64,000 bases of DNA from Nonomuraea sp. NEAU-A123. Its GTDB lineage: Bacteria; Actinomycetota; Actinomycetes; Streptosporangiales; Streptosporangiaceae. Position 1 is the first letter of the stretch. Each line of letters opens with the position of its first letter. Below, piece after piece: positions 1-16,790 of the stretch. Position numbers and translations under genes: made by a program. The stretch spans positions 1 to 64,000 of the forward strand of contig NZ_JAHFZZ010000037.1 of NCBI RefSeq assembly GCF_018603905.1, written 5' to 3'. Under the pieces are notes generated by a model. The model did not search any database, was not told where the DNA came from, and worked only from the letters and a program-made list of their open reading frames with translations.

Positions 1-2
1 CT

Positions 3-161
3 CTGCTCCGCCGGGCCATGACCAACTTCGCTGTCACCGACCTGGCCGGTCTCGTCCGGATCGTCAAACGCAAGCTGAAGAAGATCCAATACCGGCCCCA
101 CCTGCTCACCGGCTGCCTGGCCCAGACCGGACTCACCCTCGATACCCCGACAAAGCCATGA
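3..161 (+). mobile_element. C-terminal end of an IS630-like transposase (cut by window start)
   Basis: An open frame entering from the left edge gives 52 residues ending in TGA. It contains the VKRKLKKIQYRPHLLTGC stretch, close to the C-terminus of IS630-family (DDE) transposases found in many actinomycetes. Only the tail is visible, so it cannot be said whether the element is intact. I saw no terminal inverted repeat in the following 257 bases, which hold no convincing gene. The family call rests on recalled similarity of the tail. Confidence 0.6.
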
Positions 162-418
162 CCGACTCTACGAATTCAACCTGTGTAGCACGAACTGGCC
201 AGACGGCTTGGGCCCGGGGAGCGCGAGGGGCCAAACGGCCACCTCGCCGGAAGTGTGGGGACTTGTCCCCACTATCACCGCCTGAGCTCCATCGGCGCTG
301 AGCGCCTGAAGGCGATGACCATGCTTTCATGGGCCGGGCCCGTATGACACGCGTCAAGACATGCTGACAGCGCCCTCTGGCGAACGCTGCCTGCGGGTTC
401 CTGTACTGCCAGGCTGTC

Positions 419-782: not shown

Positions 783-1871
783 TCAGGGCTGGACGGCGCC
801 TGGCAGGCCCAGTGCGGCCAAGATCATGGGGTAGGAGTTCTTGAACTCCCTGATCCAGTACGGCCAGGTGTGGGTGCCGTTGCCGTACAGGTTCAGGGTG
901 TGCTGGATGCCCAGGCTGTTCAGCCGCTTGCTCAGGGCCTTGGCCGTGTAGGCGGAGATGGGTTCGCCGAGGTGGGCCGGGTGCCAGGGGGAGCCGGGCG
1001 GGTCCAGGGGGCCGAGGAAGCTGTTCGTGCCGCTCGAGATGTAGATCGAGACGCCCTTCAGGCCCGGGGCCAGGGCCACGGGGTCGTTGGCCGCCCAGAC
1101 CCTCCTGTCGCGCAGGGGGTCGCCCCAGAGGGCCTTGGGGTCCTGCTTCTCGCTGGCCTGGGCGTTCATGATGATCTCGGGGATGCCGGGGAGCTGGGTG
1201 GCCATGACGCCGCTGTACGCACCGACGAAGCGGAACATCCCCGGATAGCGTGCCGCGTACTTCATCGCCCCGTACGCACCCATCGACAGCCCGGCGACGG
1301 CTCGACGGGTGCCCGCGCGGTAGCCGATCTCCAGCAGCCGCCGCACCTCGTACGTGTGGAACGTGGCCCACGCCGGTGGACCGCCCTTGCCGTTGTTGTA
1401 CCAGTCTGAGTAGTTACCGGCTCGGCCTGCTTCCGGCATGACGACTATGGCGTCCAGGTTCTCGGTGAAGCCGGCTATGTCCGTCATGCGGGTCCAGGAC
1501 GTGTAGTTGTCGGCGCCGCCGTGCAGGAGGTACAGGACGGGCCAGGTTCGGCTCGCGTTCTTGGACCAGCCCTTGGGGAGCAGCAGGCGGACCGGCGTCA
1601 ACTGGCCGATCGACGGTGAGGAGATGAGAACGTCGAGCATGCGGGGGCCCAGCCACCGCTCCCGCACGACGCGGGCGTTGCCGGGGAGAGCCTTCTGGCC
1701 GGGCAGGTAGTTCGCGGGCCGGGAGTCCGTTGTGGGCCGTACGGCCGGTGGCTGGGTGGTCGTCTGGCCGTCGGGCACGATCGACCAGTCTGGATCGGCG
1801 AGCGCGGGAGTGGCGCTCGACCCGATGAGGAGCACCGTCGTCGCCAGTGCCAGCAGGCCGTGGGATCGCAT
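783..1871 (-). CDS. Secreted antigen-85-like esterase / acyltransferase
   Basis: A 362-residue alpha/beta-hydrolase with a Sec signal peptide (residues 1-25, ending TPALA). The nucleophile is Ser196 in GLSMG and the catalytic histidine is probably His334 in GTHTWPYW. An oxyanion HGG lies near residue 118. The patterns IVVMPEAG, YSDWY and GTHxWxYW match mycobacterial antigen 85 (FbpA-C, mycolyltransferases) more closely than generic esterases. The ATG at 1871 is preceded by a GGGGAG ribosome site, and a TAGCCT -10 lies at 1904-1909. Longer upstream frames lack a signal peptide. It is transcribed divergently from the Pks13-like synthase. Many non-mycolate actinomycetes carry Ag85-fold esterases of unknown substrate, so acyl transfer is inferred from context. 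Confidence 0.8.
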   Translation of the reverse strand: MRSHGLLALATTVLLIGSSATPALADPDWSIVPDGQTTTQPPAVRPTTDSRPANYLPGQKALPGNARVVRERWLGPRMLDVLISSPSIGQLTPVRLLLPKGWSKNASRTWPVLYLLHGGADNYTSWTRMTDIAGFTENLDAIVVMPEAGRAGNYSDWYNNGKGGPPAWATFHTYEVRRLLEIGYRAGTRRAVAGLSMGAYGAMKYAARYPGMFRFVGAYSGVMATQLPGIPEIIMNAQASEKQDPKALWGDPLRDRRVWAANDPVALAPGLKGVSIYISSGTNSFLGPLDPPGSPWHPAHLGEPISAYTAKALSKRLNSLGIQHTLNLYGNGTHTWPYWIREFKNSYPMILAALGLPGAVQP

Positions 1872-1942
1872 GAGGGCTCCCCTTCGCAAGTGAGACCGTG
1901 GCGAGGCTAGGGGCCACGGCACCGCCCCAGCTATGACCCAAT

Positions 1943-1967
1943 GCAACGAAATATCGTCGTTGGTTGC
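1943..1967. promoter_or_regulatory. Candidate operator between esterase and PKS
   Basis: Inverted repeat GCAAC-N15-GTTGC with an inner ACGA-N4-TCGT, in the 226-bp divergent intergenic region. It lies upstream of the esterase -10 (1904-1909) and of a PKS -10-like TATGTT (2062-2067). A second short dyad TCAC-CGGC-GTGA sits at 1993-2004. The PucR-type regulator at 9061 is a candidate ligand; that is inference. Confidence 0.3.
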
Positions 1968-2097
1968 GCTCTGCCGGACAAAACCGGGGTTATCACCGGC
2001 GTGACAAATCGCACCCGAGGAATGTTCGGTACGGGGCTGCCCCAGCGCCGGAGGGCGCGGGTATGTTGGCCGACCACCCGGCAGCATGGGAGCCCTC

Positions 2098-5000
2098 GTG
2101 AACGTACTGGGTGAAGCCGGCATCCGCCGCTTCCTCACCGAACGGATCGCCTCACGCGGAATCGAGCGGGTCGATCCGGAACGGCCGCTGGAGGAGTACG
2201 GCCTGTCGTCGCGTGACGCGGTGGCGATCGCGGGCGAGCTGGCCGAACTGCTCGGCAGGGAGCTCAGCCCGACCCTCGCCTGGGAACACCCGACGATCAA
2301 CCGCCTGGCCCGCGCACTCGCCGCGCCGCCGCGGGAACGCGAGCCGGAAACCCCCGGCGTGCTCGGGGAGCCGGTGGCGGTGGTCGGGGTGGGGTGCCGG
2401 TTGCCGGGCGCGCACGGCCCGGGGGCGTACTGGGACCTGCTGCTCGAAGGGCGAGACGCGGTCGGCGAGGTGCCCGTGGGCCGGTGGGAGGCGTTCGACG
2501 ACGGGTCGGCGCGCACGGAGGAGGTGCTGGCCAGGACGACCAGGCAGGGCGGGTTCCTGGAGGACGTGGCGGGGTTCGACGCGGAGTTCTTCGGGATCGC
2601 GCCGGGCGAGGCGGCCCTCATGGATCCGCAGCAGCGGCTGCTCCTGGAGACGGCCTGGGAGGCGCTGGAGCACGGCGGCATCGCCCCGAGGTCGCTGGGC
2701 GGCAGCCGTACCGGGGCGTTCGTCGGCATCTCCAGCACCGAGTACGCCTACCTGACCAGCACGGACCTGGCCGGCGTCGGCGCGTGGACGGCCACCGGCG
2801 CGGCGCTCAGCATCGCCGCGAACCGCCTGTCCTACCTCCTCGACCTGCGCGGCCCCTCGATGGCGGTGGACACGGCCTGCTCGTCCTCGCTCGTCGCCGC
2901 CCACCTCGCGGTAGGCGCGCTGAGGTCGGGGGAGTGCGACCTGGCCCTGGCCGCCGGAGTGAACCTGCTGCTGTCTCCCCTGGTCACGGTGGCGTTCGAC
3001 CAGGGCGGCGGCACGGCGGCGGACGGGCGGTGCAAGGCGTTCGACGCGTCGGCCGACGGCATGGTGCGCGCCGAGGGCTGCGGCGTCGTCGTACTCAAAC
3101 GCCTGGCGGACGCCGAACGGGACGGCGACCGGGTGCTCGCGGTGATCACGGAGACCGGCGTCAACCAGGACGGCCGCTCGAACGGCCTCGTCGCCCCGAA
3201 CCCCGAGGCGCAGGAAGCGCTGTTGCGTGAGGTGTACGCGGGGCTGGACCGGGGGCCCGACTACGTGGAGGCGCACGGAACCGGCACGTTCCTCGGCGAC
3301 CCCATCGAGGCGCGGGCCATCGCCGCGGTGTTCCCCGGACAGGTGCTGCTCGGCTCGGCCAAGACGAACCTCGGCCACCTGGAGGCGGCGGCCGGGATCG
3401 CGGGGCTCATCAAGACGGTCCTGGCGCTGTGGCACGGCGTGATCCCGCCCAGCCTGCACTTCCGGCAGCCGAACCCGCACATTCCCTGGGAGACGCTGCG
3501 GGTCGTCACCACGCCCACACCTTGGCCGCGACCGGACGCGCGAGCGGGGGTGTCGTCGTTCGGCTTCGGCGGCACCAACGCGCACGTCGCTCTGGCGGCG
3601 TACCGGGCGCAGGAGGCCGCGGCGGTCGCCCGAGCCGTCCCCGCCAAGCACATCTTCGTCCTCACCGGCACCACTCCCGATCGCGTCGGGCAGCACGCGG
3701 AGACCCTGGCCGCCTGGCAGCCCTCGGCCGACCTCCGCGACGTGGCCCACACCCTCGCCAGGCGAGCCGGTCACGGTCGCAGCGCCACCGCCGTGCTGGC
3801 CGCCGACGCGCCCGAGCTGCGCGAACGACTCGCCGCCGTCACCCCTCGCCCCGTCCCCCCGGCTCCGGTCGGGCCGGTGTGGGTCTTCAGCGGGTACGGC
3901 TCGCAGTGGCAGGGGATGGGCCACCACCTGTACGAAACGGAACCGCCCTACAGACAGGCGATCGACGAACTCGCCCCCCTCCTCCAGGCCGAAGCCGCCA
4001 TCGACCTCCACACCCCGGCGGCGGCCCCGGGCGTCGCCACGGTCCAGCCCATGATCTTCGCCGTCCAGATCGCCTTGGCCCGCCTGTGGCAGGCGTACGG
4101 CATCGAACCCGCCGCGGTGATCGGCCACTCGATGGGCGAGGCAGCGGCCGCGGTCGTGGCAGGCGGCCTCGACCTGCCCGACGCGGTACGGGTGATCTGC
4201 CGCCGCGCCCGCCTCCTCGGCACCGTCGGCAGCGGGACTGGGGCCATGGCCGTGGTCGGGGTGGGTGCCGAGGAGGTGCCCGGTGACCTGTACGTGGCGG
4301 TTCATTCCGCGCCGAGCCAGACCGTCGTCACCGGTGCCCCCGAGCGGATCGCCCGGTTCGTGGCGGAGGTCGAGGCCAGCGGTCTGTTCGCCAGAACGCT
4401 CACCACCGAAGGCGCCGGCCATTCACCCCAGGTCGCCCCCTTGCTGCCGAAGATCAGGGCCGAGCTCGTCGCCATCACCCCGGCCAAGCCGCGCCTGCCG
4501 TACTACTCCACGGTCTTCGACGACCCCCGCGAGACCCCCACGTTCGAGGCCGCGTACTGGGCCGCGGGCGTGCGCCGCCCGGTACGCCTGCTCCAGGCTG
4601 TACGGGCCGCCGCGGAGGACGGTTTCACCGTCTTCACCGAGGTGAGCCCGCACCCCTTGCTGAGCCCGGCGCTCCAGGACACGCTCCCGGCCACCACGAT
4701 GATCACCCACTCCCTCGAACGCCGTCACGACCACGCCTTCCACACCCAGCTCGCCACCGTGGCCACCGCCATCACGCCCAGGACGCGGGGCCAGGTGGTG
4801 GACGTACCGGGAGCGCCGTGGCAGCACACGCGCCACTGGGTCACCCCGTACTGCCGCCCACCGGGACACCGCCTGCTCGGCGCGTACGTCGAGTCCCCCG
4901 CTGGACACTCGTGGACCACCACGCTCGACGACCTCGCCGACGCGCCCTGGCGGCTGGAGCCGTCCGGCTGGCATCGCCACGGCCACCCCGTGCTCCCGCT

Positions 5001-7764
5001 CACCGCCGTGGCCCGGCTCGCGCACGCCGCCGCCACGGAGGTGTACGGATCGGCGGAGTTGTACGAGGTAGCCCTGCACGCGTTGCTGCCCCTGCCCGCG
5101 CGGGTGACGGTCACGTTGACGGGGACCGGGGTCGAGCTGGCGGCCAAGAACGCCGCAGGCTCCTGGACGGTCTACGGCTCGGCCGGCCTCACGCGGACGG
5201 TTCGGCCGGCTGATGCCCTGGAGAGGGTACGGCGGGTGGCGGCGGACGGCACGCTCCACGGGGTCGAGAGCCGGGAGGTCCCGGCGTCCAGCATCCCGGT
5301 GCCCCTCGACGACAAGCTCCTCGAACGCGTCTGGGTCCCCGCCCCCTTGCCGGCGGCTCCGGCGGCCGGTGGGTCGGGTGCCATCGTGCGGGTGCCGCGG
5401 CTGCTCGATCCTCGGGCGGCTCGACGGCTGATCCTGGATCTGGCCCGCCGCGCCGACCAGGGGACAGAGCTCACGATCGTCACCGAACGCGCTCAGGCCG
5501 TACGAGACGGAGAGGCGGCCGATCCCGGTCCCGCCTCGGTGAGCGGGCTGGTCAGGGTGCTGGCGTTCGAGCGCCCCGAAGCGCGCGTCAGGCTGGTGGA
5601 CGTCGACGACCTCAACGTCCTGGCCCAGGAACTCGCCGCCGACAGCGGGGATGACGAGGTGGCCTGGCGTGACGGCGCGCGCTACGCGGCCCGGCTGCGC
5701 CGCGCGACACTCGGCACGGTGTTCCATCCGTCGGTTGTGGGGCCTGGCGGGTATGTGATCACCGGTGGGTACGGCAGGCTCGGGCTGGTCGTCGCGCGCT
5801 GGCTGGCCAGTCGTGGTGCCACGCGCATCGTGCTGAACGGCCGCTCCGCCGCTCCCGTGCCGAGTGACCTCGAGGGCGTCGCCGAGGTGGTGGTGGGTGA
5901 TCTGGCTGCTCACGGTACGGCCGAGCGGCTCGTGGCGGCTGCGACCGACGGAGGGGTACGGCTACGCGGAGTCGTACACGCCGCCGGAGTCCTGGATGAC
6001 CGGCTGATAGCCGATCTCGACCCGGGCAGCCTCCAACGGGTCTGGGCCGCCAAGGTGGATGGCGCGCTCCACCTTCACCAAGCCACCGAACACCTGGACC
6101 TCGACTGGTGGGTGGCCTTCTCCTCGGCCGCCGCGCTGCTCGGCTCCCCTGGCCAGGCCGCTTACGCCACCGCCAACGCCTGGCTGGACGCCCTCTGCCG
6201 GTTGCGTCGTGCGCGGGGGCTGCCCGCCGTCGCCATTGGCTGGGGTACGTGGGCCGGGGCGGTCGCGATGCCGGGGATCGAGCCGCTGACCGCTGAGGAG
6301 GGTGTCGAGGCGTTGGAGGCGTTGATCCAGCGTGACCGGTGTGCGGGGGTGGTCAGGTTCGCTCCGGCCGCGGCTTTGTCGGTGTTTCCGGGGATCGGTC
6401 GCCTTCCGTACTTCTCGGAGGTCGCCGGCCACCTCGCCTCGGAGGGGCCGCGTGATCTCGCCGAGCTGGGGCCCGAGGAGGCGCTGGCCGCCGTCGTGGG
6501 GCAGGTCAGGGAGCGGGTCGCGGCCGTGCTCGGGGTGGAGCCGGTGTGGCTGGACGAGGGCGCCGTGCTCACCGGGCGGGGGCTCGACTCGCTGGCCGCC
6601 ACCCGGTTGCGTGGCACGATCGAGTACGACTTCGGCGTCACGATCCCGACGGCACCGCTGCTCAACGGCGGAACGCTGGGCGACCTGGCACGGACCGTCG
6701 CCACCGAACTGGGCCTCACACAGCCCGAACCGGCACGCGCTGTGGTCGGGCCGAGGGACGCGGCGGAGCGGCAGGTGGTCAGGGTGCTGACCGGCCTGCT
6801 CGGACGCGTGCCCTCAGTCACCGAGACGATCGCGCCGGACGTGCTGGCGACAACCCTCGACCTCCTCAGCCACGAACTCGGCAGAACGGTCGAGACAGGC
6901 GGCGGGGTCCGGGTGGCCGAGGTCGCCGATGCCGTGCGCCAGGGCGAGGTCGCCGAGGCCGGGCTCGCCGTCGTCAGACCCCTCACCGCACGCACCGGCG
7001 ACCGGCCGCTGTTCCTGGCGCACCCCGCCGGTGGCACCACAGGCGGGTACGCCCTGCTGGCCGCCCGCCTGGACCTCCCGGTCATCGGCCTGGAGCGGCT
7101 GGACGGCGCGGGCGAGCTGGGCATCCCCGAGCGGGCCGCCCGCTATGCCGAGGCCGTCAAGCAGACCTGTCCCGGGCCCTACCGGCTGGGCGGCTGGTCG
7201 TTCGGAGGGACTCTGGCGTTCGAGATCGCCAGGCGGCTGGACGACGACGTCGAGCTGGTCGCGATGATCGACGCCGGGCTGCCGGCCAGGGTGTCCGAGG
7301 AGAGGCGGCGGGAGATCCAGGCCCAGCGGTACGCCGATTTCGCGACATATCTGCATCACACCTACGGCGTCCAGGTCCGCCTCGACCAGCGCGAACTCCG
7401 GCTGCTCGACGAGCGCGGACAGCTCGCGCTGGCCGAGGAGCGGATCGCGGAGTCCGGCGTGCCGGCCCTGCTCAGCCCGGCCATCCTGCGCCACCAGATC
7501 ACCTCGCACGAGGACACCAGGGCCCTCGACCGGTACGAGGCCGGGCCGTACCAGGGCGAAGTGGTCCTCTACCGTTCCACGGAGCCGACCCCCTGGACGG
7601 TCGAGGACGTGCGGTACGCGCACGAGGACGATCCGGCGCGCGGCTTCCGCCCTTACAGCCCGCGCCTGGAGATCGTCGAGATTCCCGGCTCGCACCACCT
7701 CAACCTGCTCGACCCACCCCACGTCGAAGGCATCGCCGACGACCTGAAGAGGAGGCTCGCATGA
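2098..7764 (+). CDS. Pks13-like type I polyketide synthase (ACP-KS-AT-DH0-KR-ACP-TE)
   Basis: A 1,888-residue single-module synthase. The GTG at 2098 is chosen because GGGAG lies 5 nt upstream; an ATG at 2086 has no such site. Domains in order: ACP1 with Ser38 in GLSSRDAVA (the loading-carrier signature of mycobacterial Pks13); KS with Cys261 (DTACSSS), His393 and His427; AT with Ser678 (GHSMGE) and GAGH at 772-775; a remnant dehydratase near 915-1030 with Trp958 where the catalytic His should be; KR with a GGYGRLG nucleotide site, VLDD (B-type) and Tyr1356/Asn1360; ACP2 with Ser1498; a carrier-like relic without serine at about 1552-1614; and a thioesterase with Ser1701 (GWSFGG), Asp1725 and His1866 or His1867. 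No enoylreductase is present. Predicted chemistry: condensation of a preloaded acyl chain with an alkylmalonyl unit, ketoreduction and release or transfer by the TE. Confidence 0.88.
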   Translation: MNVLGEAGIRRFLTERIASRGIERVDPERPLEEYGLSSRDAVAIAGELAELLGRELSPTLAWEHPTINRLARALAAPPREREPETPGVLGEPVAVVGVGCRLPGAHGPGAYWDLLLEGRDAVGEVPVGRWEAFDDGSARTEEVLARTTRQGGFLEDVAGFDAEFFGIAPGEAALMDPQQRLLLETAWEALEHGGIAPRSLGGSRTGAFVGISSTEYAYLTSTDLAGVGAWTATGAALSIAANRLSYLLDLRGPSMAVDTACSSSLVAAHLAVGALRSGECDLALAAGVNLLLSPLVTVAFDQGGGTAADGRCKAFDASADGMVRAEGCGVVVLKRLADAERDGDRVLAVITETGVNQDGRSNGLVAPNPEAQEALLREVYAGLDRGPDYVEAHGTGTFLGDPIEARAIAAVFPGQVLLGSAKTNLGHLEAAAGIAGLIKTVLALWHGVIPPSLHFRQPNPHIPWETLRVVTTPTPWPRPDARAGVSSFGFGGTNAHVALAAYRAQEAAAVARAVPAKHIFVLTGTTPDRVGQHAETLAAWQPSADLRDVAHTLARRAGHGRSATAVLAADAPELRERLAAVTPRPVPPAPVGPVWVFSGYGSQWQGMGHHLYETEPPYRQAIDELAPLLQAEAAIDLHTPAAAPGVATVQPMIFAVQIALARLWQAYGIEPAAVIGHSMGEAAAAVVAGGLDLPDAVRVICRRARLLGTVGSGTGAMAVVGVGAEEVPGDLYVAVHSAPSQTVVTGAPERIARFVAEVEASGLFARTLTTEGAGHSPQVAPLLPKIRAELVAITPAKPRLPYYSTVFDDPRETPTFEAAYWAAGVRRPVRLLQAVRAAAEDGFTVFTEVSPHPLLSPALQDTLPATTMITHSLERRHDHAFHTQLATVATAITPRTRGQVVDVPGAPWQHTRHWVTPYCRPPGHRLLGAYVESPAGHSWTTTLDDLADAPWRLEPSGWHRHGHPVLPLTAVARLAHAAATEVYGSAELYEVALHALLPLPARVTVTLTGTGVELAAKNAAGSWTVYGSAGLTRTVRPADALERVRRVAADGTLHGVESREVPASSIPVPLDDKLLERVWVPAPLPAAPAAGGSGAIVRVPRLLDPRAARRLILDLARRADQGTELTIVTERAQAVRDGEAADPGPASVSGLVRVLAFERPEARVRLVDVDDLNVLAQELAADSGDDEVAWRDGARYAARLRRATLGTVFHPSVVGPGGYVITGGYGRLGLVVARWLASRGATRIVLNGRSAAPVPSDLEGVAEVVVGDLAAHGTAERLVAAATDGGVRLRGVVHAAGVLDDRLIADLDPGSLQRVWAAKVDGALHLHQATEHLDLDWWVAFSSAAALLGSPGQAAYATANAWLDALCRLRRARGLPAVAIGWGTWAGAVAMPGIEPLTAEEGVEALEALIQRDRCAGVVRFAPAAALSVFPGIGRLPYFSEVAGHLASEGPRDLAELGPEEALAAVVGQVRERVAAVLGVEPVWLDEGAVLTGRGLDSLAATRLRGTIEYDFGVTIPTAPLLNGGTLGDLARTVATELGLTQPEPARAVVGPRDAAERQVVRVLTGLLGRVPSVTETIAPDVLATTLDLLSHELGRTVETGGGVRVAEVADAVRQGEVAEAGLAVVRPLTARTGDRPLFLAHPAGGTTGGYALLAARLDLPVIGLERLDGAGELGIPERAARYAEAVKQTCPGPYRLGGWSFGGTLAFEIARRLDDDVELVAMIDAGLPARVSEERRREIQAQRYADFATYLHHTYGVQVRLDQRELRLLDERGQLALAEERIAESGVPALLSPAILRHQITSHEDTRALDRYEAGPYQGEVVLYRSTEPTPWTVEDVRYAHEDDPARGFRPYSPRLEIVEIPGSHHLNLLDPPHVEGIADDLKRRLA

Positions 7765-9053
7765 CGCTGGCAGAGGCCGTGGTGGCGGGCGCGGGGCCCG
7801 CGGAGCTGGCGAGCCTGGAGGTGCCGACACGCTACCGGGCTGTACACCTCCGCAAGGACGAGGTCGGCATGTTCGGCGACATGAGCGACAAGGACGTACG
7901 GAAGTCCCTGCATGTGGGGGAGGTGCCGATGCCGGAGCTGGCGCCTGATGAGGTTCTTGTCGCGGTCATGGCCAGTGCGATTAATTTCAACACGATCTGG
8001 TCGGCCATGTTCGAGCCGATCCCGACGTTCGCGTTCCTGGAACGCTTCGGGCGTACCGACCCGCGGCACGATCTGCCCACCCACGTGCTCGGCTCCGACG
8101 CGGCCGGGGTGGTCGTCAGGACGGGGCAGGCGGTACGGCACTGGCGGGCCGGGGACCGGGTGGTCACCAGCCCCGCCTACCTCGACAGTCAGGACCCGAT
8201 CGTGCAGCACGACGGGATGCTGGCCGCGGACCTGCGCGCGTGGGGGTTCGAGACGAACTTCGGCGGGCTGGCGGAGTTCGCGGTGGTCAAGGCGACGCAG
8301 TTGCTGCCCAAGCCGCGGCATCTGAGCTGGGAGGAGGCGGCGTGCAACATGCTGTGCGCGTCGACCGCGTACCGGATGCTGGTCGGCGAGCGCGGCGCCC
8401 GGATGAAGCAGGGCGACGTGGTGCTGCTGTGGGGAGCGTCGGGCGGGCTCGGCGCGTACGGCGTGCAGCTCGTCAGGAACGGCGGCGGCATCCCCGTCGG
8501 CGTGGTGAGCTCCCCGGAGAAGGCCGCGCTGCTGCGCCGGATGGGCTGCGCGCACGTCGTCGACCGCTCACGCTTCGACGACCTGACCGACGAGAAGGGG
8601 TGGCGCGGGCTGGGGGCGGAGATCAGGCGCCAGGTGGGTGAGGACCCGGCCATCGTGTTCGAGCACACCGGAAGGGACACTTTCGGCGCGTCGGTATATG
8701 TCGCGAAAAAGGGCGGGAAGGTGGTCACCTGTGGGTCGTCCAGCGGGTACGACCACGCCTACGACAACCGGCACCTGTGGATGCGGCTCAAGCAGATCAT
8801 CGGCTCCCACGGCGCGAACTACCAGGAATGCCACGAGGTTAACCGCCTCATCTCGCTCGGCATGATCCATCCCACGCTCTCCCGCGCGTACCCGCTGGCC
8901 GAGGCGGCGGACGCCGCGCGGGCCGTCCAGCTCAACCAGCACGTGGGGAAGGTCGGCGTGCTGGCCCTGGCCCCCGGCCCGGACCTCGGCATCGAGGACG
9001 CCGCCCACCGCGAGCGCATCGGCGAGGACCGTCTCCGGCTGTTCCGTTCCTAG
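7761..9053 (+). CDS. ccr: Crotonyl-CoA carboxylase/reductase
   Basis: A 430-residue medium-chain dehydrogenase family enzyme. Its start overlaps the PKS stop as ATGA, so the two are translationally coupled. The AINFNTIW segment, the nucleotide site GASGGLGAYGVQ and the HTGRDTFGASVYVAKKGG region are typical of Ccr enzymes, which reductively carboxylate crotonyl-CoA or other 2-enoyl-CoAs to ethylmalonyl- or alkylmalonyl-CoA with NADPH and CO2. Coupling to the synthase indicates that it supplies a dedicated extender unit, in agreement with the GAGH motif in the AT. A role in the ethylmalonyl-CoA assimilation pathway is less likely, because no other gene of that pathway is nearby. Confidence 0.9.
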   Translation: MTLAEAVVAGAGPAELASLEVPTRYRAVHLRKDEVGMFGDMSDKDVRKSLHVGEVPMPELAPDEVLVAVMASAINFNTIWSAMFEPIPTFAFLERFGRTDPRHDLPTHVLGSDAAGVVVRTGQAVRHWRAGDRVVTSPAYLDSQDPIVQHDGMLAADLRAWGFETNFGGLAEFAVVKATQLLPKPRHLSWEEAACNMLCASTAYRMLVGERGARMKQGDVVLLWGASGGLGAYGVQLVRNGGGIPVGVVSSPEKAALLRRMGCAHVVDRSRFDDLTDEKGWRGLGAEIRRQVGEDPAIVFEHTGRDTFGASVYVAKKGGKVVTCGSSSGYDHAYDNRHLWMRLKQIIGSHGANYQECHEVNRLISLGMIHPTLSRAYPLAEAADAARAVQLNQHVGKVGVLALAPGPDLGIEDAAHRERIGEDRLRLFRS

Positions 9054-9060
9054 AAAAGAC

Positions 9061-10251
9061 TCACAAAGGGCGTGCGGCCAGGGCGGCCGCCCGGCGGGCA
9101 CGCAGCACGATCTCCAGCTCGAAGCGGATGTCCGGATCGGCGAGCTGGTCCCCGTAAAGCTCCTCCAACTGCCGCAACCGATACCGAACCGTCTGCGGAT
9201 GCACATGCAGCCGAGCCGCCACCTCCCCCGCCCCCCGGCCGTGCCGCAGCCAGGCCAGCAGCGTCTCCGCCAGCCGGTCCTGCTGCGTGGGCCGCAGATG
9301 GGCCAGCGGCGCCAGCCGTATCTCCGCCAGTGCGTTGACCAGCTCCTCGTCCTTGAACACGACCAGCGTCGCCATATGGTCCGTGCAGCGCAGCAGGCCG
9401 CGCGGCAGCACGCCGCGCCCGGACAGCTCCAGTGCCTCGGCCGCCCACCGCAGCGACGACGCGGCGGCGGGCAGGGGCACGGCGGGCCCGATCGCGCCCA
9501 GGTAGCCGCGGAGCGCGGTCTCCAGCATCCGGGCCTGGCCGGGGCCGTTCGGGTCGGGTACGAGCAGGCATGGCGTGGTTCGTTCCAGGCCGGTCAGCAC
9601 GTCGGGCGGCACCGCGGGGGACCGGCAGGTGCCGTGCTGGTCGTCGAGCGCGACGCAGGCCACGGTCTTCGGCAGCCGCCACCCGGCGGCCCTGGCCAGG
9701 TCGGAGATGGCCTCCGAACCGGCGGGCGGCCGGCTCAGCAGCAGGTCGAGCAGCCGGTTGCGGCGCCGCTCGATCTCGCCCGCCGCGTGTGCCCGAGCTT
9801 CGTCGAAGCCCTCGGCCGCGGCGTCGGCGAGCTGGTCGAGGTAGACGAAGATGGCCTCGCCCAGGTCGTACAGGGACTGCGGGGAGAGTCCGAGCGGGTC
9901 GGCGATCTCAGTCAGCCGCCGCCAGCCGACCCGGGCGCCCAGCCGCATCGCGGCCTGCAGCGGCTCCAGATTGCGACCCTCCGCCGCCTCGCCCTTGCCG
10001 ATCATGCGGAACGGCTCGGGGTCCCAGGGGGCGGCGGGGTCCTGGATGTGGTCGAGGAAGCCGTCGATGGCCTGCTCGACGGTGGTCCTGACGACCTTGA
10101 TGTAGACCTCGTCGGATGGCCGGGCGTACTCGGGGATGCGGGCCTGGATCTCCCCGATCACCTCGGCGGAGATCCGGCCGATTCCGGCCTTGAGCGTCTT
10201 CACGATGTCCGCGGAGATCCGGGTGTCGCTGGTGTCACTCTTGCTGGCCAT
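9061..10251 (-). CDS. PucR/CdaR-type transcriptional regulator
   Basis: A 396-residue regulator with a C-terminal PucR-type helix-turn-helix (AARLHVHPQTVRYRLRQLEEL) and an N-terminal all-helical RsbR/RsbT-like region. The ATG at 10251 is preceded by GGAGG with 5 nt spacing, which decides against an in-frame ATG at 10269. It converges on the ccr gene with only 7 bp between the stops. Members of this family often control neighbouring catabolic or secondary-metabolite genes. Control of the PKS/ccr operon or the esterase is inferred from position. Confidence 0.85.
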   Translation of the reverse strand: MASKSDTSDTRISADIVKTLKAGIGRISAEVIGEIQARIPEYARPSDEVYIKVVRTTVEQAIDGFLDHIQDPAAPWDPEPFRMIGKGEAAEGRNLEPLQAAMRLGARVGWRRLTEIADPLGLSPQSLYDLGEAIFVYLDQLADAAAEGFDEARAHAAGEIERRRNRLLDLLLSRPPAGSEAISDLARAAGWRLPKTVACVALDDQHGTCRSPAVPPDVLTGLERTTPCLLVPDPNGPGQARMLETALRGYLGAIGPAVPLPAAASSLRWAAEALELSGRGVLPRGLLRCTDHMATLVVFKDEELVNALAEIRLAPLAHLRPTQQDRLAETLLAWLRHGRGAGEVAARLHVHPQTVRYRLRQLEELYGDQLADPDIRFELEIVLRARRAAALAARPL

Positions 10252-10310
10252 CGTCCCTCCTGTCGCCATTGTTACCCGCGCGGCAGAGGTTTGTGTAGCA
10301 AGTGCTTGTT

Positions 10311-10511
10311 TTACTTCAGGAAGGCGCCGAACTCTTCCACGTCGATCAAGCCGTCCCCGTCCTTGTCGAGCCGCTGCACTCCGGCCTGCGCCGCCTCCAG
10401 CGTGATCGGCTGACCCAGCACCTCCATCAGTCCCACCAGCTCTTCGGCGGAGATCCTGCCGTCCTTGTCAACGTCGATCAGGTCGAAAGTGATCGTGTAA
10501 TCGGTGCTCAT
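10311..10511 (-). CDS. Two-EF-hand calcium-binding protein
   Basis: A 66-residue calmodulin-like protein consisting almost only of two EF-hands. The loops DVDKDGRISAEE and DKDGDGLIDVEE carry Asp/Asp/Asp and Glu at positions 1, 3, 5 and 12, so both should bind calcium. There is no signal peptide or membrane segment, so it should act in the cytoplasm as a sensor or buffer. An AAAGGGC ribosome site precedes the ATG. Similar small EF-hand proteins (calerythrin/CabC type) occur in Streptomyces. The target is unknown and neighbours give no clue. Confidence 0.88.
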   Translation of the reverse strand: MSTDYTITFDLIDVDKDGRISAEELVGLMEVLGQPITLEAAQAGVQRLDKDGDGLIDVEEFGAFLK

Positions 10512-10540
10512 GGGTCGCCCTTTCGCGAGATCCGTGTCGG

Positions 10541-11419
10541 TCAGACCTTAGTAGCGCTTTCTCGGAGTGCGTCGATGAATGCCCTGACTTCTGGCCTTTT
10601 ATCGCCGGACCGCCAGGCGATGGCCAGCTCGCCCGGCGGGAGGCCGGTCACCGGGCGATAGACCAGGCCGGGCCGTTTGTAGAGCGCGGCGTTGCCCTCG
10701 GCCACCAGGACGACGCCCAAACCGCTGGTCACGGCCTCGAACACCTCTTCAGGCGTGTTGGCCGTGACCCCGATGACCGGCTCGTCGTCCCGGAGGTCGC
10801 GGGCGAGCCAGTAGTCGCGCAGCGGCCCCGCCGAGGTGGGCAGCGCGATGAACGGCTCGTCGCGCAGGGCCTCGAACGGGATCTCCGCCAGCTCGGCGAG
10901 GGGGTGGTCGTCCGGCATGGCGACGCCTCTGCCCTCAGTGGCGAGAACATGCGTGTTCAGTCCCTCGGGCACGGGCAGCCAGATGAAGGCCACGTCGGAG
11001 CCGCCGTCGGCCAGGCCGCCGCTGGGATCGTCCCAGCCGACCAGCCGCAGTGACACCTCCCAGCCGGGCATCGCCTTCCGGAACAGGCGCAGCGCCTCCT
11101 GCTGGATCCCTCGCCCGACCGCCGTCTGCATGCCGATGACCAGGGTGCCCGTGGGTGCGGCGGCCCGTGCGGTCTCAAGCCCGGCGTTCCACCGGTCGAG
11201 CAGTTCGCGCGCGACCGGCAGCAGCGTCTCGCCCTGCCTGGTCAGGACCATCCCGGAGGGCACGCGCTCGAACAGGCCGAAGCCGAGCTGCCGTTCCAGC
11301 GCCCTGAGCTGCTTGGACAGCGCGGGCTGGGAGACGAACAGCCGCTCGGCGGCCCTAGTCACGTTCAGCTCCTCGGCCGTCGCGACGAAATAACGCAGGT
11401 CCCGCAGGTGCACGTCCAT
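10541..11419 (-). CDS. LysR-family transcriptional regulator
   Basis: A 292-residue LysR regulator with an N-terminal winged helix (MDVHLRDLRYFVATAEEL, then a VSQPALSKQLRALE recognition helix) and a periplasmic-binding-like effector domain. Two in-frame ATGs exist. The inner one at 11419 is chosen because an extended -10 (TGCTATAAC, hexamer at 11428-11433) lies 8 nt upstream, which suggests a leaderless message. It diverges from an aldo-keto reductase across a 62-bp gap that carries a palindrome, the classical arrangement for a LysR regulator acting on its neighbour and on itself. Confidence 0.88.
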   Translation of the reverse strand: MDVHLRDLRYFVATAEELNVTRAAERLFVSQPALSKQLRALERQLGFGLFERVPSGMVLTRQGETLLPVARELLDRWNAGLETARAAAPTGTLVIGMQTAVGRGIQQEALRLFRKAMPGWEVSLRLVGWDDPSGGLADGGSDVAFIWLPVPEGLNTHVLATEGRGVAMPDDHPLAELAEIPFEALRDEPFIALPTSAGPLRDYWLARDLRDDEPVIGVTANTPEEVFEAVTSGLGVVLVAEGNAALYKRPGLVYRPVTGLPPGELAIAWRSGDKRPEVRAFIDALRESATKV

Positions 11420-11432
11420 AACCATCGGTTAT
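11418..11432. promoter_or_regulatory. LysR-type operator, ATAACC-ATC-GGTTAT
   Basis: A perfect 6-bp inverted repeat with a 3-bp centre in the divergent lysR/aldo-keto reductase region. It overlaps the lysR -10 hexamer and start codon, so binding would repress lysR, and it lies 50 bp upstream of the reductase start. The T-N11-A geometry of LysR boxes is present. Binding itself is inference. Confidence 0.6.
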
Positions 11433-11481
11433 AGCAGTAGGTCTTGGACGTGCCGCCCGTACCGCCAGCAGGATGAACCGC

Positions 11482-12465
11482 ATGAAGACACGTGAACTCG
11501 GAAACAACCTGCGGGTCCCCGCGATCGGCTTCGGCGCGATGGTGCTGTCGCCCGGCGTGTACGGCGACATCGACGACACCCGCGCCGAGACGGCGCTCAA
11601 GGCGGCACTCGACGCCGGAGCGGTCCACGTCGACACCAGCGACGCCTACGGTGCGAACGGCCACAACGAGCGCCTGGTCGGCCGGGCGATCAAGGGCCGG
11701 CGCGACGAGGTGGTGGTCGCCACCAAGTTCGGCCTGGCCATCCCGGAGGGGGAGGCGAGCAGATCGCAGCCCGTGGGCTACGCGTTCGGCGAGCTGCGGG
11801 TGAACGCCGAGCCGCGGATGGTCCGCCGCTACGCCGAGCGGAGCCTGCGCAACCTGGACACCGACGTGATCGACCTCTACTACTCGCACTACGTGGACCC
11901 GGGCGTGCCGATCGAGGAGACGGCCGGGGCGATGGCCGAGCTCGTCGAGGCCGGGCTGGTCAGGCACCTCGGCCTGTCGAACGTGACCGCAGACGAGCTG
12001 CGCCGGGCGCATGCCGTGCACCCGGTGGCGGCCGTGCAGAACGAATGGTCGATGTGGCGGCCGGTCGATCCCGACCTCCTCAAGGCGGCCCGCGAGCTGA
12101 ACGTGGGCATCGTGGCCTGGAGCCCGCTCGGCAACGGCTTCCTCACCGGCACCGTCCAGCAGTTGGGCGAGGGCGACTTCCGGCACAACGCGCCCCGCTT
12201 CTCCGCCGGCAACCTGGCGAGCAACAACGATCGTTACGCCCCGATCAGGGACCTGGCCACCCGCCTGGGCATCACCCCCGCCCAACTGGCCCTGGCCTGG
12301 CTGCTGCACCAGTACGAGCACGTGGTGGCGATCCCGGGCAGCCGCACCCCCGTGCACATCGAGGAGAACCTGGCCGCCGCCGACCTCGTCCTGCACCGCG
12401 ACACACTGGCCCAGGTCGACGAGGCGCTCGCCGGATTCGAGGTGACCGGCGGCACCCTGCTCTGA
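11482..12465 (+). CDS. Aldo-keto reductase
   Basis: A 327-residue NADPH-dependent (beta/alpha)8 oxidoreductase. The catalytic tetrad is visible: Asp in HVDTSDAYG, Tyr in the same block, Lys in VVVATKFG and His in YYSHYVDP. The ATG at 11482 has AGGA 8 nt upstream; an ATG at 11473 directly abuts that site and is less likely. It is probably controlled by the divergent LysR regulator. The substrate is unknown; the closest general class is the YajO/Tas-like aldehyde or ketone reductases. The next gene begins right after the stop codon, so both may be co-transcribed. Confidence 0.87.
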   Translation: MKTRELGNNLRVPAIGFGAMVLSPGVYGDIDDTRAETALKAALDAGAVHVDTSDAYGANGHNERLVGRAIKGRRDEVVVATKFGLAIPEGEASRSQPVGYAFGELRVNAEPRMVRRYAERSLRNLDTDVIDLYYSHYVDPGVPIEETAGAMAELVEAGLVRHLGLSNVTADELRRAHAVHPVAAVQNEWSMWRPVDPDLLKAARELNVGIVAWSPLGNGFLTGTVQQLGEGDFRHNAPRFSAGNLASNNDRYAPIRDLATRLGITPAQLALAWLLHQYEHVVAIPGSRTPVHIEENLAAADLVLHRDTLAQVDEALAGFEVTGGTLL

Positions 12466-12498
12466 ATGGGTGACCCGCTCCTGGGTAGCGGTGGCGGC

Positions 12499-14160
12499 AT
12501 GCGACTGACGTACACCTCGGATTTGTGGTGGAAGAACGCCGTTGTCTACTGCCTGGACGTCGAGACGTTCAAGGACGGCAACGACGACGGGATCGGCGAC
12601 TTCCGCGGGCTCACGCAGCAGATCGACTACCTGGCGGGGATGGGGGTCACCACCCTGTGGCTGATGCCGTTCTTCCCGACCCCCAACCGGGACGACGGCT
12701 ACGACATCACCGACTTCTACTCCATCGACCCCCGGCTCGGCACGCTGGGCGACTTCGTAGAGTTCATGCGGACCGCCAAGGACCGCGGCCTGCGGGTGAT
12801 CGCGGACCTGGTCGTGAACCACACCTCCGACCAGCACCCCTGGTTCATCGAATCGCGGTCGAGCAAGAAGTCGCCGCTGCGCGACTGGTACGTCTGGTCG
12901 GACAAGCCGGAGCCGGACGATCCCAAGCAGGTGGTCTTCCCCGACGAGGAGGACAGCATCTGGCAGCTCGACACCTCGACCGGCCAGTACTACCTGCACA
13001 GCTTCTACCGCCACCAGCCCGACCTGAACGTCAGCAACCCCGAGGTGCGCGACGAGATCGTCCGGATCCTGGGCTTCTGGATGGAGCTGGGGCTGTCGGG
13101 GTTCCGGGTGGACGCCGTGCCGTTCCTCATCGAGAACGTCCAGCCCAAGCTGGCCGACCCGCACGAGTTCCTGGCGGACCTGCGGGCCTTCATGACCCGG
13201 CGTGAGGGCACCTCGGTGCTGCTCGGCGAGGTCAACCTGCCCTACAAGGACCTGATGAGCTACTTCGGGGAGGGGCTGGGCGACCAGCTCTCCATGTGCT
13301 TCGACTTCATCGGCATGCAGCGCGCGTGGCTGGCGCTGGCGCGCGGCGAGGCCGAGCCGCTCGCCGACGCGCTCAAATCCCGGCCCAGGCCGCCCAAGGA
13401 CTGCCAGTGGGCGATGTTCCTGCGCAACCACGACGAGCTGACGCTGGACAAGCTCACGGACAAGGAACGCCAGGAGGTCTTCCGGGCATTCGGCCCAGAC
13501 GAGGACATGCAGATCTACGGCCGCGGCCTGCGCCGGCGCTTGCCGACCATGATGGGCGGGGACCCGCGCCGCATCAAGATGGCCTACAGCCTGCTCTTCT
13601 CCCTGCCGGGCACGCCCGTCATGTTCTACGGCGAAGAGATCGGCATGGGCGAGAACCTCAAGACGGAGGGCCGCATGGCCGTACGGACGCCGATGCAGTG
13701 GTCGGTGGACGGCGGCTTCACCCGGGGCGCCCCCGAACGCGAGATGCCGGACGGCGCCTACTCGCCCGCGCGGATCAACGTGGCCGACCAGAAGCGGGAC
13801 CGGGATTCGTTGCTGCGCTGGTTCCAGCTGCTCATCGAGCGCTACCGCGAGTGCCCGGAGCTGGCCTGGGGCGACTGCACAGTGCTGGAGGCGGCCGATC
13901 CGGCGATCCTGGCGCACCGCTGCGACGCCGACGGCGCCACGGTGGTGGTGATCCACAACCTTGGCGAAACCGCCCAGGACGTGGAGCTGAAACTGGCCGG
14001 GCTGGAGTCGCACACGCTCACGGACCTCCTGGTGGACGGGACGGTGGAGGTCTCCGAGCAGGGCGTGGCGCAGCTGACGCTGGAGCCGCACGGCTGCCGC
14101 TGGCTACGCGCCTCCCCGAAGGAGATCCCCGCGGAGGACGCCTCGGTCAAGTCCCTCTGA
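12499..14160 (+). CDS. GH13 alpha-amylase-family enzyme, trehalose-synthase-like
   Basis: A 553-residue glycoside hydrolase family 13 protein. Conserved regions are ADLVVNH, GFRVDAVP with nucleophile Asp205, LGEV with acid/base Glu244, and RNHD with Asp312. The W-Y-W/HSFYRHQPDLN block is typical of trehalose synthase (maltose-trehalose mutase) and close relatives. The catalytic barrel and a C-terminal beta-domain are complete, but there is no maltokinase fusion. A start at 12466 (immediately after the previous stop) is possible; neither start has a strong ribosome site. Isomerisation or hydrolysis of alpha-glucosides is supported, but the exact substrate is not settled by sequence. The protein is cytoplasmic. 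Confidence 0.82.
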   Translation: MRLTYTSDLWWKNAVVYCLDVETFKDGNDDGIGDFRGLTQQIDYLAGMGVTTLWLMPFFPTPNRDDGYDITDFYSIDPRLGTLGDFVEFMRTAKDRGLRVIADLVVNHTSDQHPWFIESRSSKKSPLRDWYVWSDKPEPDDPKQVVFPDEEDSIWQLDTSTGQYYLHSFYRHQPDLNVSNPEVRDEIVRILGFWMELGLSGFRVDAVPFLIENVQPKLADPHEFLADLRAFMTRREGTSVLLGEVNLPYKDLMSYFGEGLGDQLSMCFDFIGMQRAWLALARGEAEPLADALKSRPRPPKDCQWAMFLRNHDELTLDKLTDKERQEVFRAFGPDEDMQIYGRGLRRRLPTMMGGDPRRIKMAYSLLFSLPGTPVMFYGEEIGMGENLKTEGRMAVRTPMQWSVDGGFTRGAPEREMPDGAYSPARINVADQKRDRDSLLRWFQLLIERYRECPELAWGDCTVLEAADPAILAHRCDADGATVVVIHNLGETAQDVELKLAGLESHTLTDLLVDGTVEVSEQGVAQLTLEPHGCRWLRASPKEIPAEDASVKSL

Positions 14161-14177
14161 CCCGGCCAGGTTTCCCG

Positions 14178-14208
14178 TAACCCGTGGGTTATTTGCCGGA
14201 GTTAGCCT
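14178..14208 (+). promoter_or_regulatory. Leaderless promoter with operator for the 5'-nucleotidase
   Basis: TAACCC-GT-GGGTTA (14178-14191) is a perfect palindrome. It is followed by a TAGCCT -10 (14203-14208) that ends 7 nt before the ATG at 14216, the spacing of leaderless actinobacterial messages. The palindrome covers the -35 position, so it is a good repressor or activator site. It does not resemble a PHO box. Confidence 0.5.
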
Positions 14209-14215
14209 CCTCGCC

Positions 14216-16040: not shown

Positions 16041-16781
16041 TCAAAGGTAAGACGGCTCGCTCACCCGGTGCCGGAAGGTCCACCAGACCCACGCCTGTGA
16101 GGCCACCAGGAACGGGATCATCGTGAGGATGACCGGTACCAGCAGTGCGCCCGAGGTCCCCGGCGCCAGTGGCAGCCGGAAGCCCGCCAGGACCCCGATC
16201 GCCACGAGGGCCGTCGCGGTCAGGGCGTAGGTGCGGCCCTCCCCGGCGCCGCCGGACAACACCGCCGCCCGCGCACGCAGCACGCCCCGCAGCCGCAGCG
16301 TCGCGAAGGCCAGCCCGTGCGTGGCGAACAACGCGGCCACCAGCAGGGCGGGCAGCACCGCGATGGGCCCGTGGATGCCGAGCAGCACGTCACTGAGCAG
16401 CCAACCCCAGCTCAACGCCAGCCCCCAGCTACCAGTGACGACCGCGCCGTCCCAGAACCCCTGCCACCGGACGCCCGGCAGCCGCCCGCGTAACCACAGA
16501 CCCATGTCCCGCAGGACCCAGGAGAGCACCAGCGCCACGACGAGCGAGTAGTTGCCGCTCAGCAACGAGCCCTCCAAAGCGGGGAAGAGCCCGGCGAGGA
16601 CCCCCGCGGTGGCCACCAGCCACACCTCGTTGCCGAGGAAGAAGGGCGCGATCGCGGCGATGGCCTCGCGCCGCTCGCCGGCGGTGCGCCCGAGGTACGG
16701 CAGCACCATGCCGACGCCGATGTCGGCCCCGGCCAGCACGAGGTAGCCGAGCGCGAAGAAGGCCAGGATCAGGATCTCCAT
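16041..16781 (-). CDS. cydB: Cytochrome bd-type quinol oxidase subunit II (short form)
   Basis: A 246-residue membrane protein with about seven hydrophobic segments. It opens with the CydB pattern ILAFFALGYLVLAGADIGVGM and has FLGNEVWLVATAGVLAGLFP, which carries the conserved E-W of this subunit. Classical CydB proteins run 330-380 residues, so this is a short variant missing roughly one transmembrane pair. The frame is intact. It lies 9 bp downstream of cydA in the same operon. It converges on the 5'-nucleotidase gene. Confidence 0.85.
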   Translation of the reverse strand: MEILILAFFALGYLVLAGADIGVGMVLPYLGRTAGERREAIAAIAPFFLGNEVWLVATAGVLAGLFPALEGSLLSGNYSLVVALVLSWVLRDMGLWLRGRLPGVRWQGFWDGAVVTGSWGLALSWGWLLSDVLLGIHGPIAVLPALLVAALFATHGLAFATLRLRGVLRARAAVLSGGAGEGRTYALTATALVAIGVLAGFRLPLAPGTSGALLVPVILTMIPFLVASQAWVWWTFRHRVSEPSYL

Positions 16782-16790
16782 GACGGCTCC

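Follow-up and report, generated by a model that had tools for sequence, protein, structure and literature searches.

A conserved, probable mycolate-type lipid locus in Nonomuraea, a lineage not known for mycolic acids

We analyzed a 64,000-base stretch of DNA from Nonomuraea sp. NEAU-A123, referred to here as the window, which is the first part of a 90,485-base contig (C31) in a genome of 12.7 Mb. We found in it a real and conserved gene set that is probably a lipid locus of mycolate type, although mycolates are not known from this lineage. Three genes carry this finding, and they encode a secreted esterase, a Pks13-like polyketide synthase (PKS) and a crotonyl-CoA carboxylase/reductase homologue (Ccr). 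A preliminary description, made from the sequence alone, had picked out these genes, and their coordinates, the esterase hallmarks and the domain order of the synthase were all confirmed. The gene set suggests an undescribed family of surface lipids, and the product is most likely a 2-alkyl-3-hydroxy fatty acid that would be exported and transacylated outside the cell. Judged by homology, we consider the whole mechanism of mycolate-type assembly fairly probable. Papers are cited throughout by PMC number.

Results

The esterase ACYLTRANSFERASE carries the motifs YSDWY, GLSMG and GTHTWPYW, is assigned an Esterase domain by Pfam, and its N-terminus looks like a signal peptide by eye. Its best match in the PDB was PS1 of Corynebacterium glutamicum (6e-47, residues 36-356), followed by Cmt1 and Ag85A, Ag85B and Ag85C. 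The likeness to Ag85 claimed in the preliminary description also holds for structure, as the model of the esterase (pLDDT 82.2) is closest to mycoloyltransferase A of C. glutamicum (Z 34.9, root-mean-square deviation (rmsd) 2.7 over 277 residues, 34% identity) and to Ag85A (Z 33.6, rmsd 2.0, 271 residues), with S-formylglutathione hydrolases at Z of about 29.8 and feruloyl esterases at about 25. The Ag85/PS1 fold is accompanied by a catalytic triad, Ser196/Glu303/His334, placed by alignment; across 21 locus-linked esterases Ser196, His334 and Trp336 are invariant and Glu303 is nearly so. In the esterase tree, the enzymes nearest to the synthases, the enzymes of mycolate producers and two unlinked Streptosporangiaceae paralogues part together from four other esterases with support of 86/96, on a branch that is not starred, among long branches and with the short matches of L022, L023 and L024 left out.

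We found the esterase at 74% identity or more in 16 of 35 genomes of the same genus, and the start of a PKS gene lies beside it in all 16 loci. The esterase, PKS, Ccr and a PucR-type regulator stand together in 11 of 11 window-type loci (those of named Streptosporangiaceae that reach all four genes), five of which come from the same genomes as five of the 16. Locus L039, cut at a contig end, holds the PKS, Ccr and regulator only. In the PKS search, eleven loci of Pseudonocardiales/Frankia type reach the thioesterase (TE) of the synthase (L040, L041, L043, L052, L085, L087, L088, L090, L093, L096 and L097). All eleven hold an esterase of this family no more than about 2.4 kb away, where it adjoins the synthase or is separated from it by a fatty acyl-AMP ligase (FAAL) or an AccD4-like gene. 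A FAAL was scored next to the PKS in ten of these and none was scored in L097. To these can be added L139, from a genome of family f20, with its AccD4-like gene, FAAL, esterase and a synthase that has no ketoreductase (KR), which is the Pks13 set almost part for part. A Pks13-like TE-bearing synthase and a PS1/Ag85-type enzyme are thus found within about 2.4 kb of each other in 12 loci, of which 11 (all but L097) have a FAAL beside the PKS and four (L041, L052, L097 and L139) have an AccD4-like gene.

The distribution is wider still in a class-wide sample, where a TE match at E<=1e-15 was found in at least 67 of 393 genomes: 12 of the window's own family (f1, own genome included), 38 of f6, eight each of f19 and f20, and one of f103. 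This number includes three genomes with weak matches of 61-67 bits (G486, G669 and G676). Within genus g20, the TE of L139 was matched at E<=1e-30 in at least 32 of 199 genomes, and the esterase lies directly downstream of the synthase in 28 of 30 loci, the other two of which stop at a contig end. The class survey scored at most six candidates per genome and the g20 survey at most 12, so that both tallies may be low. A search of plasmids with the L139 TE gave no match. The co-occurrence of esterase and synthase in relatives, which mattered to the preliminary description, therefore extends over several families. Chance neighborhood was rejected because the gene arrangement is conserved across genomes (16/16, 11/11, 11/11 and 28/30 loci).

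We take f19 as Frankiaceae, while g20 appears to be Streptomyces and f103 appears, from its likeness to Kutzneria, to be Pseudonocardiaceae. A cydA-like region of one g20 genome (G056) has 77.6% DNA identity to Streptomyces sulphureus over 2252 bases, and the same marker region of f20 genomes has 68-74% identity to Kutzneria or f103 over 776-924 bases. Some loci represent one genome under two names (e.g., L032/G013 and L088/G586). One locus, L085, comes from a metagenome-assembled genome (MAG) of 5.0 Mb labelled Bifidobacterium breve, which holds a FAAL, a TE-bearing synthase and an esterase; the label is probably wrong.

The synthase has Pfam matches to two PP-binding domains, a ketosynthase (KS), an acyltransferase (AT), PKS_DH_N, a KR and a Thioesterase. 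Its N-terminal acyl carrier protein (ACP) motif, GLSSRDAVA, had been taken as a signature of Pks13. The motif does match the Pks13 rows of our alignment; it is also mostly kept in other FAAL-linked mycobacterial synthases, including those of Pks1 type. In ATs, YASH or HAFH marks methylmalonyl or malonyl specificity and smaller residues are typical of enzymes for exotic alkylmalonyl-CoA units (PMC6490886); the GAGH of the window is also present in two of five Pks13 rows. The same source gives Hxxx(G/D)xxxxPG as the dehydratase (DH) motif and LDD as the signature of B-type KRs (PMC6490886). The DH motif is absent in synthases of the window type, with the whole DH region missing in L086 and L091, and is kept letter for letter in L040, L043, L052, L085, L087 and L088, six of the ten rows of Pseudonocardiales/Frankia type in which the region is present. 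Because these six loci keep the motif, their product may be an enoyl acid. The third carrier has no serine and begins with GPRDAAER, which aligns with PPRDAAER of Pks13 and also with the Pseudonocardiales rows; L139 has no such carrier. The corresponding carrier of Pks13 (ACP3/psiACP) is non-functional (PMC9900942, PMC9210659). In L086 the N-terminal carrier (9833-10627) is in a different frame from the rest of the PKS (10036-15630), which may be a frameshift or a split protein.

A phmmer search with the TE (E<=1e-5) over all open reading frames of the loci found matches in the window-type synthases, in those of Pseudonocardiales/Frankia/f20 type (including the MAG locus L085), in Pks13 and in one synthase of S. 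sulphureus. This search is a limited control because most mycobacterial loci have no TE. Across six whole genomes that were scored, TEs of the Pks13 kind gave 125-229 bits and ordinary TEs 68 bits or fewer. The Pks13-type TE is the strongest marker of Pks13 likeness.

In the KS tree, 12 window-type, 13 Pseudonocardiales/Frankia/f20 and seven Pks13 rows stand together against 20 modular or Pks1-type rows with support of 98/92. The preliminary description had expected the KS to fall outside modular synthases, and for the modular synthases compared here this is so, but the alternative of separating the window type from Pks13 is not rejected (see Discussion). The comparison drew on 38 of 141 other KS domains (22 high-scoring and 16 random) and kept 52 of 72 rows after near copies, three Pks13 rows and two long branches were dropped; L097 was left out since its KS is too short, and L122 was counted in group B, as the same N-terminal carrier occurs in its frame. 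The FAAL tree left out 20 loci with partial rows, near copies or weak or distant matches. Forcing the window-type, Pseudonocardiales-type and FadD32/Pks13 rows together costs nothing (approximately unbiased test, p-AU 0.54 for FAAL and 0.56 for the concatenated data). An ordinary modular PKS was rejected on the KS trees and the TE survey.

We found that Ccr occupies the place of AccD4 in Streptosporangiaceae loci. In a survey of 30 loci from the class-wide sample, the window's included, Ccr lies directly behind the TE in all ten other fetched f1 loci (weak match G486 left out). In the same place an AccD4-like gene is found in four of four Pks13 loci, four of eight f19 loci and the single f103 locus, and the esterase in the other four f19 loci and all six f20 loci. 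No AccD4-like gene was scored in the window-type loci examined, where Ccr is found instead. Genus g20 is a second lineage with a reductive carboxylase here, as Ccr follows the esterase in four of its 30 loci (L203, L204, L205 and L207).

The Ccr of the window is a zinc-type dehydrogenase by Pfam and scores 514 bits with TIGR01751, above the cut-off of 378.55, and its nearest PDB structure is CinF, a 2-octenoyl-CoA enzyme (568 bits vs 497 and 495 for crotonyl-CoA enzymes). It shares Ala and Gly with CinF (4a0s) at what we count on the alignment as CinF positions 163 and 362; Ile and Phe stand there in the crotonyl-CoA enzymes. We take these two positions to set acyl chain length. Of 25 window-type Ccrs examined, 21 carry both letters and another carries the Gly, while three were unmatched by the search pattern. 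Reductive carboxylation in place of an acyl-CoA carboxylase, as the preliminary description proposed, is supported by gene position and by pocket letters of the medium-chain kind. Related support comes from AntE, in which the substitution V350G, possibly at another place, gives longer alkyl chains (PMC6117356). The genome has only one other Ccr-like sequence of comparable length and identity (61%), which scores equally on contigs C3 and C82, and this paralogue has Val and Gly at the two places.

The nearest named relative in the PKS search was N. guangzhouensis (locus L031), with 91% identity over the whole PKS. There, genes for a FAAL, an MmpL protein, a major facilitator superfamily (MFS) protein, a glycosyltransferase and a secreted protein precede the esterase gene and are contiguous with the esterase and PKS genes; their families were assigned from their copies on contig C36 of the window's genome. 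With the L031 FAAL as query, C36 gave a match at 97% identity and the next match in the genome was 74 bits. All five genes recur, in unchanged order, within the first 12 kb of C36 (L135), where the secreted-protein gene ends 210 bases from the contig end. The genome thus has a FadD32-like FAAL, for which the preliminary description had proposed to search. By eye, base 1 of the window and base 1 of C36 both lie inside an insertion-sequence end (window 1-185, L135 1-130), and the sequence just inside both contig ends matches an uninterrupted stretch of L031. The insertion element would fall between the secreted-protein and esterase genes, where N. guangzhouensis has no element. Because of these insertion-sequence ends and the match of the inner sequence to L031, C36 and the window are very probably one locus, split by an insertion sequence that would also have broken the assembly.

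Among PDB structures, the FAAL on C36 is nearest to FadD32 (466 bits vs 366 for FadD23 and 282 for FadD28), and MmpL3 is the closest to the MmpL protein (361 bits vs 116 for MmpL5). The MmpL protein is also the top match in the genome to the MmpL3 model, at 236 + 212 bits in two pieces, compared to 160 + 92 and 138 + 128 for the next. The MFS protein is EmrB-like (212 bits, just under the cut-off) and the glycosyltransferase is of the sterol-glucosyltransferase/GtfB kind. The secreted-looking protein of 427 residues (L135:211-1491, minus strand) is conserved in Streptosporangiaceae loci, has no match in Pfam or NCBIfam and gave a poor AlphaFold model (pLDDT 44.7). The features of the window are collected in Table 1; several of these parts, namely the MmpL3-like exporter, the TreS-like gene, the wide spread of the loci, the degenerate DH and the serine-less carrier, are additions to the preliminary description.

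Table 1. Features of the locus in the window, with positions, strand and evidence
Feature	Position	Strand	Size and evidence
Transposase-like tail and insertion-sequence end	1..185	+	by eye, at contig break; contiguous arrangement in L031
Secreted PS1/Ag85-type alpha/beta hydrolase, probable extracellular acyltransferase	783..1871	-	362 aa; PDB match, model, triad alignment
Pks13-like condensing synthase, ACP-KS-AT-(DH remnant)-KR-ACP-psiACP-TE	2086..7764	+	1892 aa; Pfam, NCBIfam, PDB, alignment
N-terminal acyl carrier (GLSSRDAVA), proposed FAAL-loaded site	2155..2319	+	Pfam PP-binding, residues 24-78
Ketosynthase, Cys/His/His intact	2368..3462	+	Pfam, alignment, trees
Acyltransferase, GHSMG; GAGH replaces YASH/HAFH	3877..4734	+	Pfam, alignment
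Degenerate DH remnant, without Hxxx(G/D)xxxxPG	4867..5121	+	PKS_DH_N 9.5e-7, 29 bits vs cut-off 27; alignment
Ketoreductase, GGYGRLG and LDD (B-type signature)	5746..6255	+	Pfam, alignment
Second acyl carrier, GLDSL, Ser1502	6493..6720	+	alignment; bounds by eye
Serine-less third carrier (GPRDAAER...), like psiACP/ACP3 of Pks13	6754..6960	+	alignment; end by eye
Thioesterase/acyltransferase domain, Pks13 kind	6970..7761	+	TE surveys
Ccr, crotonyl-CoA carboxylase/reductase homologue, CinF-like pocket letters	7761..9053	+	TIGR01751, PDB, alignment
PucR-type regulator	9061..10269	-	Pfam; also found near such loci from several families
TreS-like trehalose synthase (GH13), possible supplier of acyl acceptor	12466..14160	+	TIGR02456, PDB; 3.4 kb downstream

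Discussion

From the gene content, homology, domain order, catalytic residues and co-occurrence observed here, we infer a series of reactions together with their chain lengths, acceptor and order of export. The FAAL of C36 would adenylate a long fatty acid and load it onto the N-terminal ACP, while Ccr would turn a 2-enoyl-CoA into an alkylmalonyl-CoA (hexylmalonyl or longer), which the AT would place on the second ACP. The KS would join both chains in a single decarboxylative condensation and the KR in cis would reduce the ketone. Since there is no working DH, the product would stay a 2-alkyl-3-hydroxyacyl thioester; one condensation and one reduction is the simplest reading because the DH motif is absent and the KR signature is present. 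The Pks13-type TE might then pass the acyl group to an acceptor, which may be a sugar, perhaps trehalose by way of the TreS-like enzyme, or a glycoside made by the glycosyltransferase of the locus. The MmpL3-like protein would export the acylated product, and the PS1/Ag85-type enzyme would move the acyl group to its final acceptor outside the cell.

Membership in Pks13, FadD32 or MmpL3 proper was rejected for the locus genes, which fall below the curated cut-offs. The synthase scores 1070 bits with mycolic_Pks13 (NF040607), whose cut-off of 2100 was exceeded in 11 of 296 genomes of the phylum, all of family f6, and in one of 14 control genomes. Its order also departs from the ACP-KS-AT-ACP-TE of Pks13, which has no reducing domains, by the KR and DH remnant between AT and the second ACP, and it is in the f20 relative L139 that a synthase without KR is found. 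The FAAL reaches 555 bits with the FadD32 model (NF038339, cut-off 975), and the MmpL protein 436 bits with the MmpL3 model (NF052608, cut-off 1400), the best of four matching models; C. glutamicum, a control genome, is likewise below the MmpL3 cut-off. We reason from these comparisons that the synthase, FAAL and MmpL protein are relatives of Pks13, FadD32 and MmpL3 that probably work alike, and that the synthase is probably Pks13-like in its work and in its TE/psiACP end without being a member of Pks13.

The scores below cut-off weigh against a mycolate-type reading of the locus, and other results do so as well. In the PDB search MAS (837 bits) scored above Pks13 (765) for the synthase, the NCBIfam model PKS_plus_SDR scored it slightly above the Pks13 model, and the general FAAL model gave the C36 FAAL a higher score (576 bits) than the FadD32 model did. 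An alternative KS tree that places the window type with the modular rows is 1.5 log units worse and is not rejected (p-AU 0.358). Deep branches are unresolved in the FAAL tree and in the tree of FAAL with KS-AT, and in the free concatenated tree L043, L090 and L096 join the mycobacterial Pks1-type loci at 96. For the esterase, paralogues are also present outside the locus, the second esterase of L090 groups with unrelated esterases, and the alignment to PS1 has HGGA where PS1 has DGLRA. We take the Asp and Arg of this stretch in PS1 to be trehalose contacts, and their replacement would count against trehalose as the acceptor.

We also considered what else the locus might be. A FAAL-primed, single-module pathway for a specialized metabolite is unlikely, yet it deserves attention; it would secrete a free 2-alkyl-3-hydroxy acid, lactone or glycoside through the MFS or MmpL protein as a signal or antibiotic, with the esterase as a tailoring or self-protection hydrolase. 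The MFS protein, the glycosyltransferase, the PucR-type regulator and the patchy spread (as in g20) all fit such a pathway, whereas it leaves aside that the exporter is MmpL3-like, that the esterase is nearest to mycoloyltransferases and lies near the synthase in several families, and that the TE belongs to the Pks13 kind, for which release onto polyols is described (PMC9210659). The absence of an enoylreductase and the degenerate DH, which leave no full reduction cycle, argue against another reading, in which the synthase is a lipid PKS of MAS/Pks1 kind, modular or iterative, with a TE by chance and with no more resemblance to Pks13 than FAAL-primed actinobacterial PKSs have in general. We consider this quite improbable even though MAS has the best PDB bit score, Pks1-type synthases share the N-terminal carrier motif and a KS tree that sets the window type among the modular rows is not rejected, since the TE family and the serine-less third carrier are common to Pks13 and the window esterase had no match at E<=1e-8 in any mycobacterial locus of the PKS search.

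Two further accounts concern single genes. Were Ccr the general source of ethylmalonyl-CoA in this genome, the branch would be ethyl only. The TIGR01751 score is compatible with this, as is the finding of one other Ccr-like sequence; nevertheless, the overlap of Ccr with the PKS gene, the CinF-like Ala and Gly in place of Ile and Phe and the identical order of genes in all ten other f1 loci fetched make it distinctly unlikely. A reading of the esterase as a common feruloyl- or lipid-degrading hydrolase that lies here by accident seems highly improbable: the genome has nine PF00756 matches and the fold is common, as the S-formylglutathione hydrolases show, but the neighborhood recurs, in differing arrangements, in the four sets of loci counted above.

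A mycolate-type assembly locus can be compared with several known systems. The mycobacterial FAAL-linked lipid PKSs (Pks1 type, MAS and the phthiocerol dimycocerosate and phenolic glycolipid (PDIM/PGL) systems) have FAAL priming and the N-terminal carrier motif in common with the window; the loci compared have no TE of the window kind and no match to the window esterase. These mycobacterial lipids are exported by MmpL proteins. Among the 2-octenoyl-CoA carboxylase/reductases CinF and MatL/ActF, CinF is the nearest solved structure to the window Ccr and has the same two pocket letters. Their settings differ: CinF belongs to the cinnabaramide pathway and MatL/ActF supply a mutase (PMC5719088), whereas the Ccr of the window would supply a FAAL-primed synthase that condenses once. 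Closest in overall content is the mycolate locus fadD32-pks13-accD4 with fbp/PS1 and MmpL3, which is like the window in its FAAL, its ACP-KS-AT-ACP-psiACP-TE core, its nearby PS1/Ag85-type acyltransferase and its MmpL3-like exporter; in Corynebacterium, PS1 borders the fadD32-pks13-accD4 operon (PMC5936774). The window differs in that Ccr replaces AccD4, the KR is in cis (CmrA acts separately in mycobacteria, PMC9900942), a glycosyltransferase and an MFS protein are present, the scores are below the curated cut-offs, and its host group is reported to have no mycolic acids. For one Nonomuraea species, thin-layer chromatography reportedly showed none (PMC10694255).

A 2023 preprint describes the fadD32-pks13-accD4 locus as exclusive to mycolate producers (PMC9900942); the loci found here argue otherwise. 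Our search of open-licence PMC articles returned no description of such loci outside mycolate producers, and the available sections of a FAAL review (PMC11837247) make no mention of Pks13, Streptomyces, Nonomuraea, Frankia or Amycolatopsis. We tentatively propose, knowing that it could well prove wrong, that FAAL, a Pks13-type synthase, a carboxylated-extender enzyme and a PS1/Ag85-type acyltransferase might form an old, widespread actinobacterial cassette, which mycobacteria and corynebacteria would have specialized for mycolic acids. In Nonomuraea, Frankia, Pseudonocardiales and Streptomyces-like bacteria it might serve today to place undescribed alpha-branched beta-hydroxy (or keto or enoyl) lipids on the surface or on spores, and Ccr might have replaced AccD4 in Streptosporangiaceae and again in some g20.

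Similarly composed loci from four further actinobacterial groups could serve as outgroups for the origin of mycolic acids, and the harmless soil bacteria that carry them would offer a setting in which to study condensation, export and transacylation. If the exchange of AccD4 for Ccr is true, the carboxylated extender of a mycolate-type condensation would be made by reductive carboxylation. Furthermore, our reading predicts lipids that the routine thin-layer test for mycolic acids could overlook.

Neighboring genes and further observations

The TreS-like gene scores 552 bits with TIGR02456 (cut-off 678), and its best PDB match is a trehalose synthase (3e-134). Of 13 Streptosporangiaceae loci, 11 have it in their flank, whereas all 12 loci of the other type lack it there. 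This is no more than suggestive, since in several loci it is accompanied by genes for an aldo-keto reductase and a LysR protein. Brartemicin, a trehalose diester, was obtained from a Nonomuraea sp. (PMC5711825), and we do not link it to the locus because its acyl groups are aromatic. The PucR-type gene is present in all 12 Streptosporangiaceae loci that hold Ccr. Outside this family we found it in five of 12 Pseudonocardiales/Frankia-type loci and, among the 30 short loci from g20, in 19.

The esterase and PKS genes are divergent, and the start of Ccr overlaps the stop of the PKS gene as ATGA. In two Pseudonocardiales loci the MmpL-type genes (L043:3886-5952 and L096:3774-5966) look unlike the MmpL3-like gene of Nonomuraea, judging from their first residues by eye. 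Contigs C3 and C82 of the genome have equal-score matches in the PKS and Ccr searches (e.g., C3:352516/C82:401759 and C3:340862/C82:415249), as would be expected from a duplication in the assembly or from a large repeat that is real. Further along the window, on the minus strand, lie genes that resemble cytochrome bd oxidase subunits (16041-18041) and a two-component-like pair (18138-19936).

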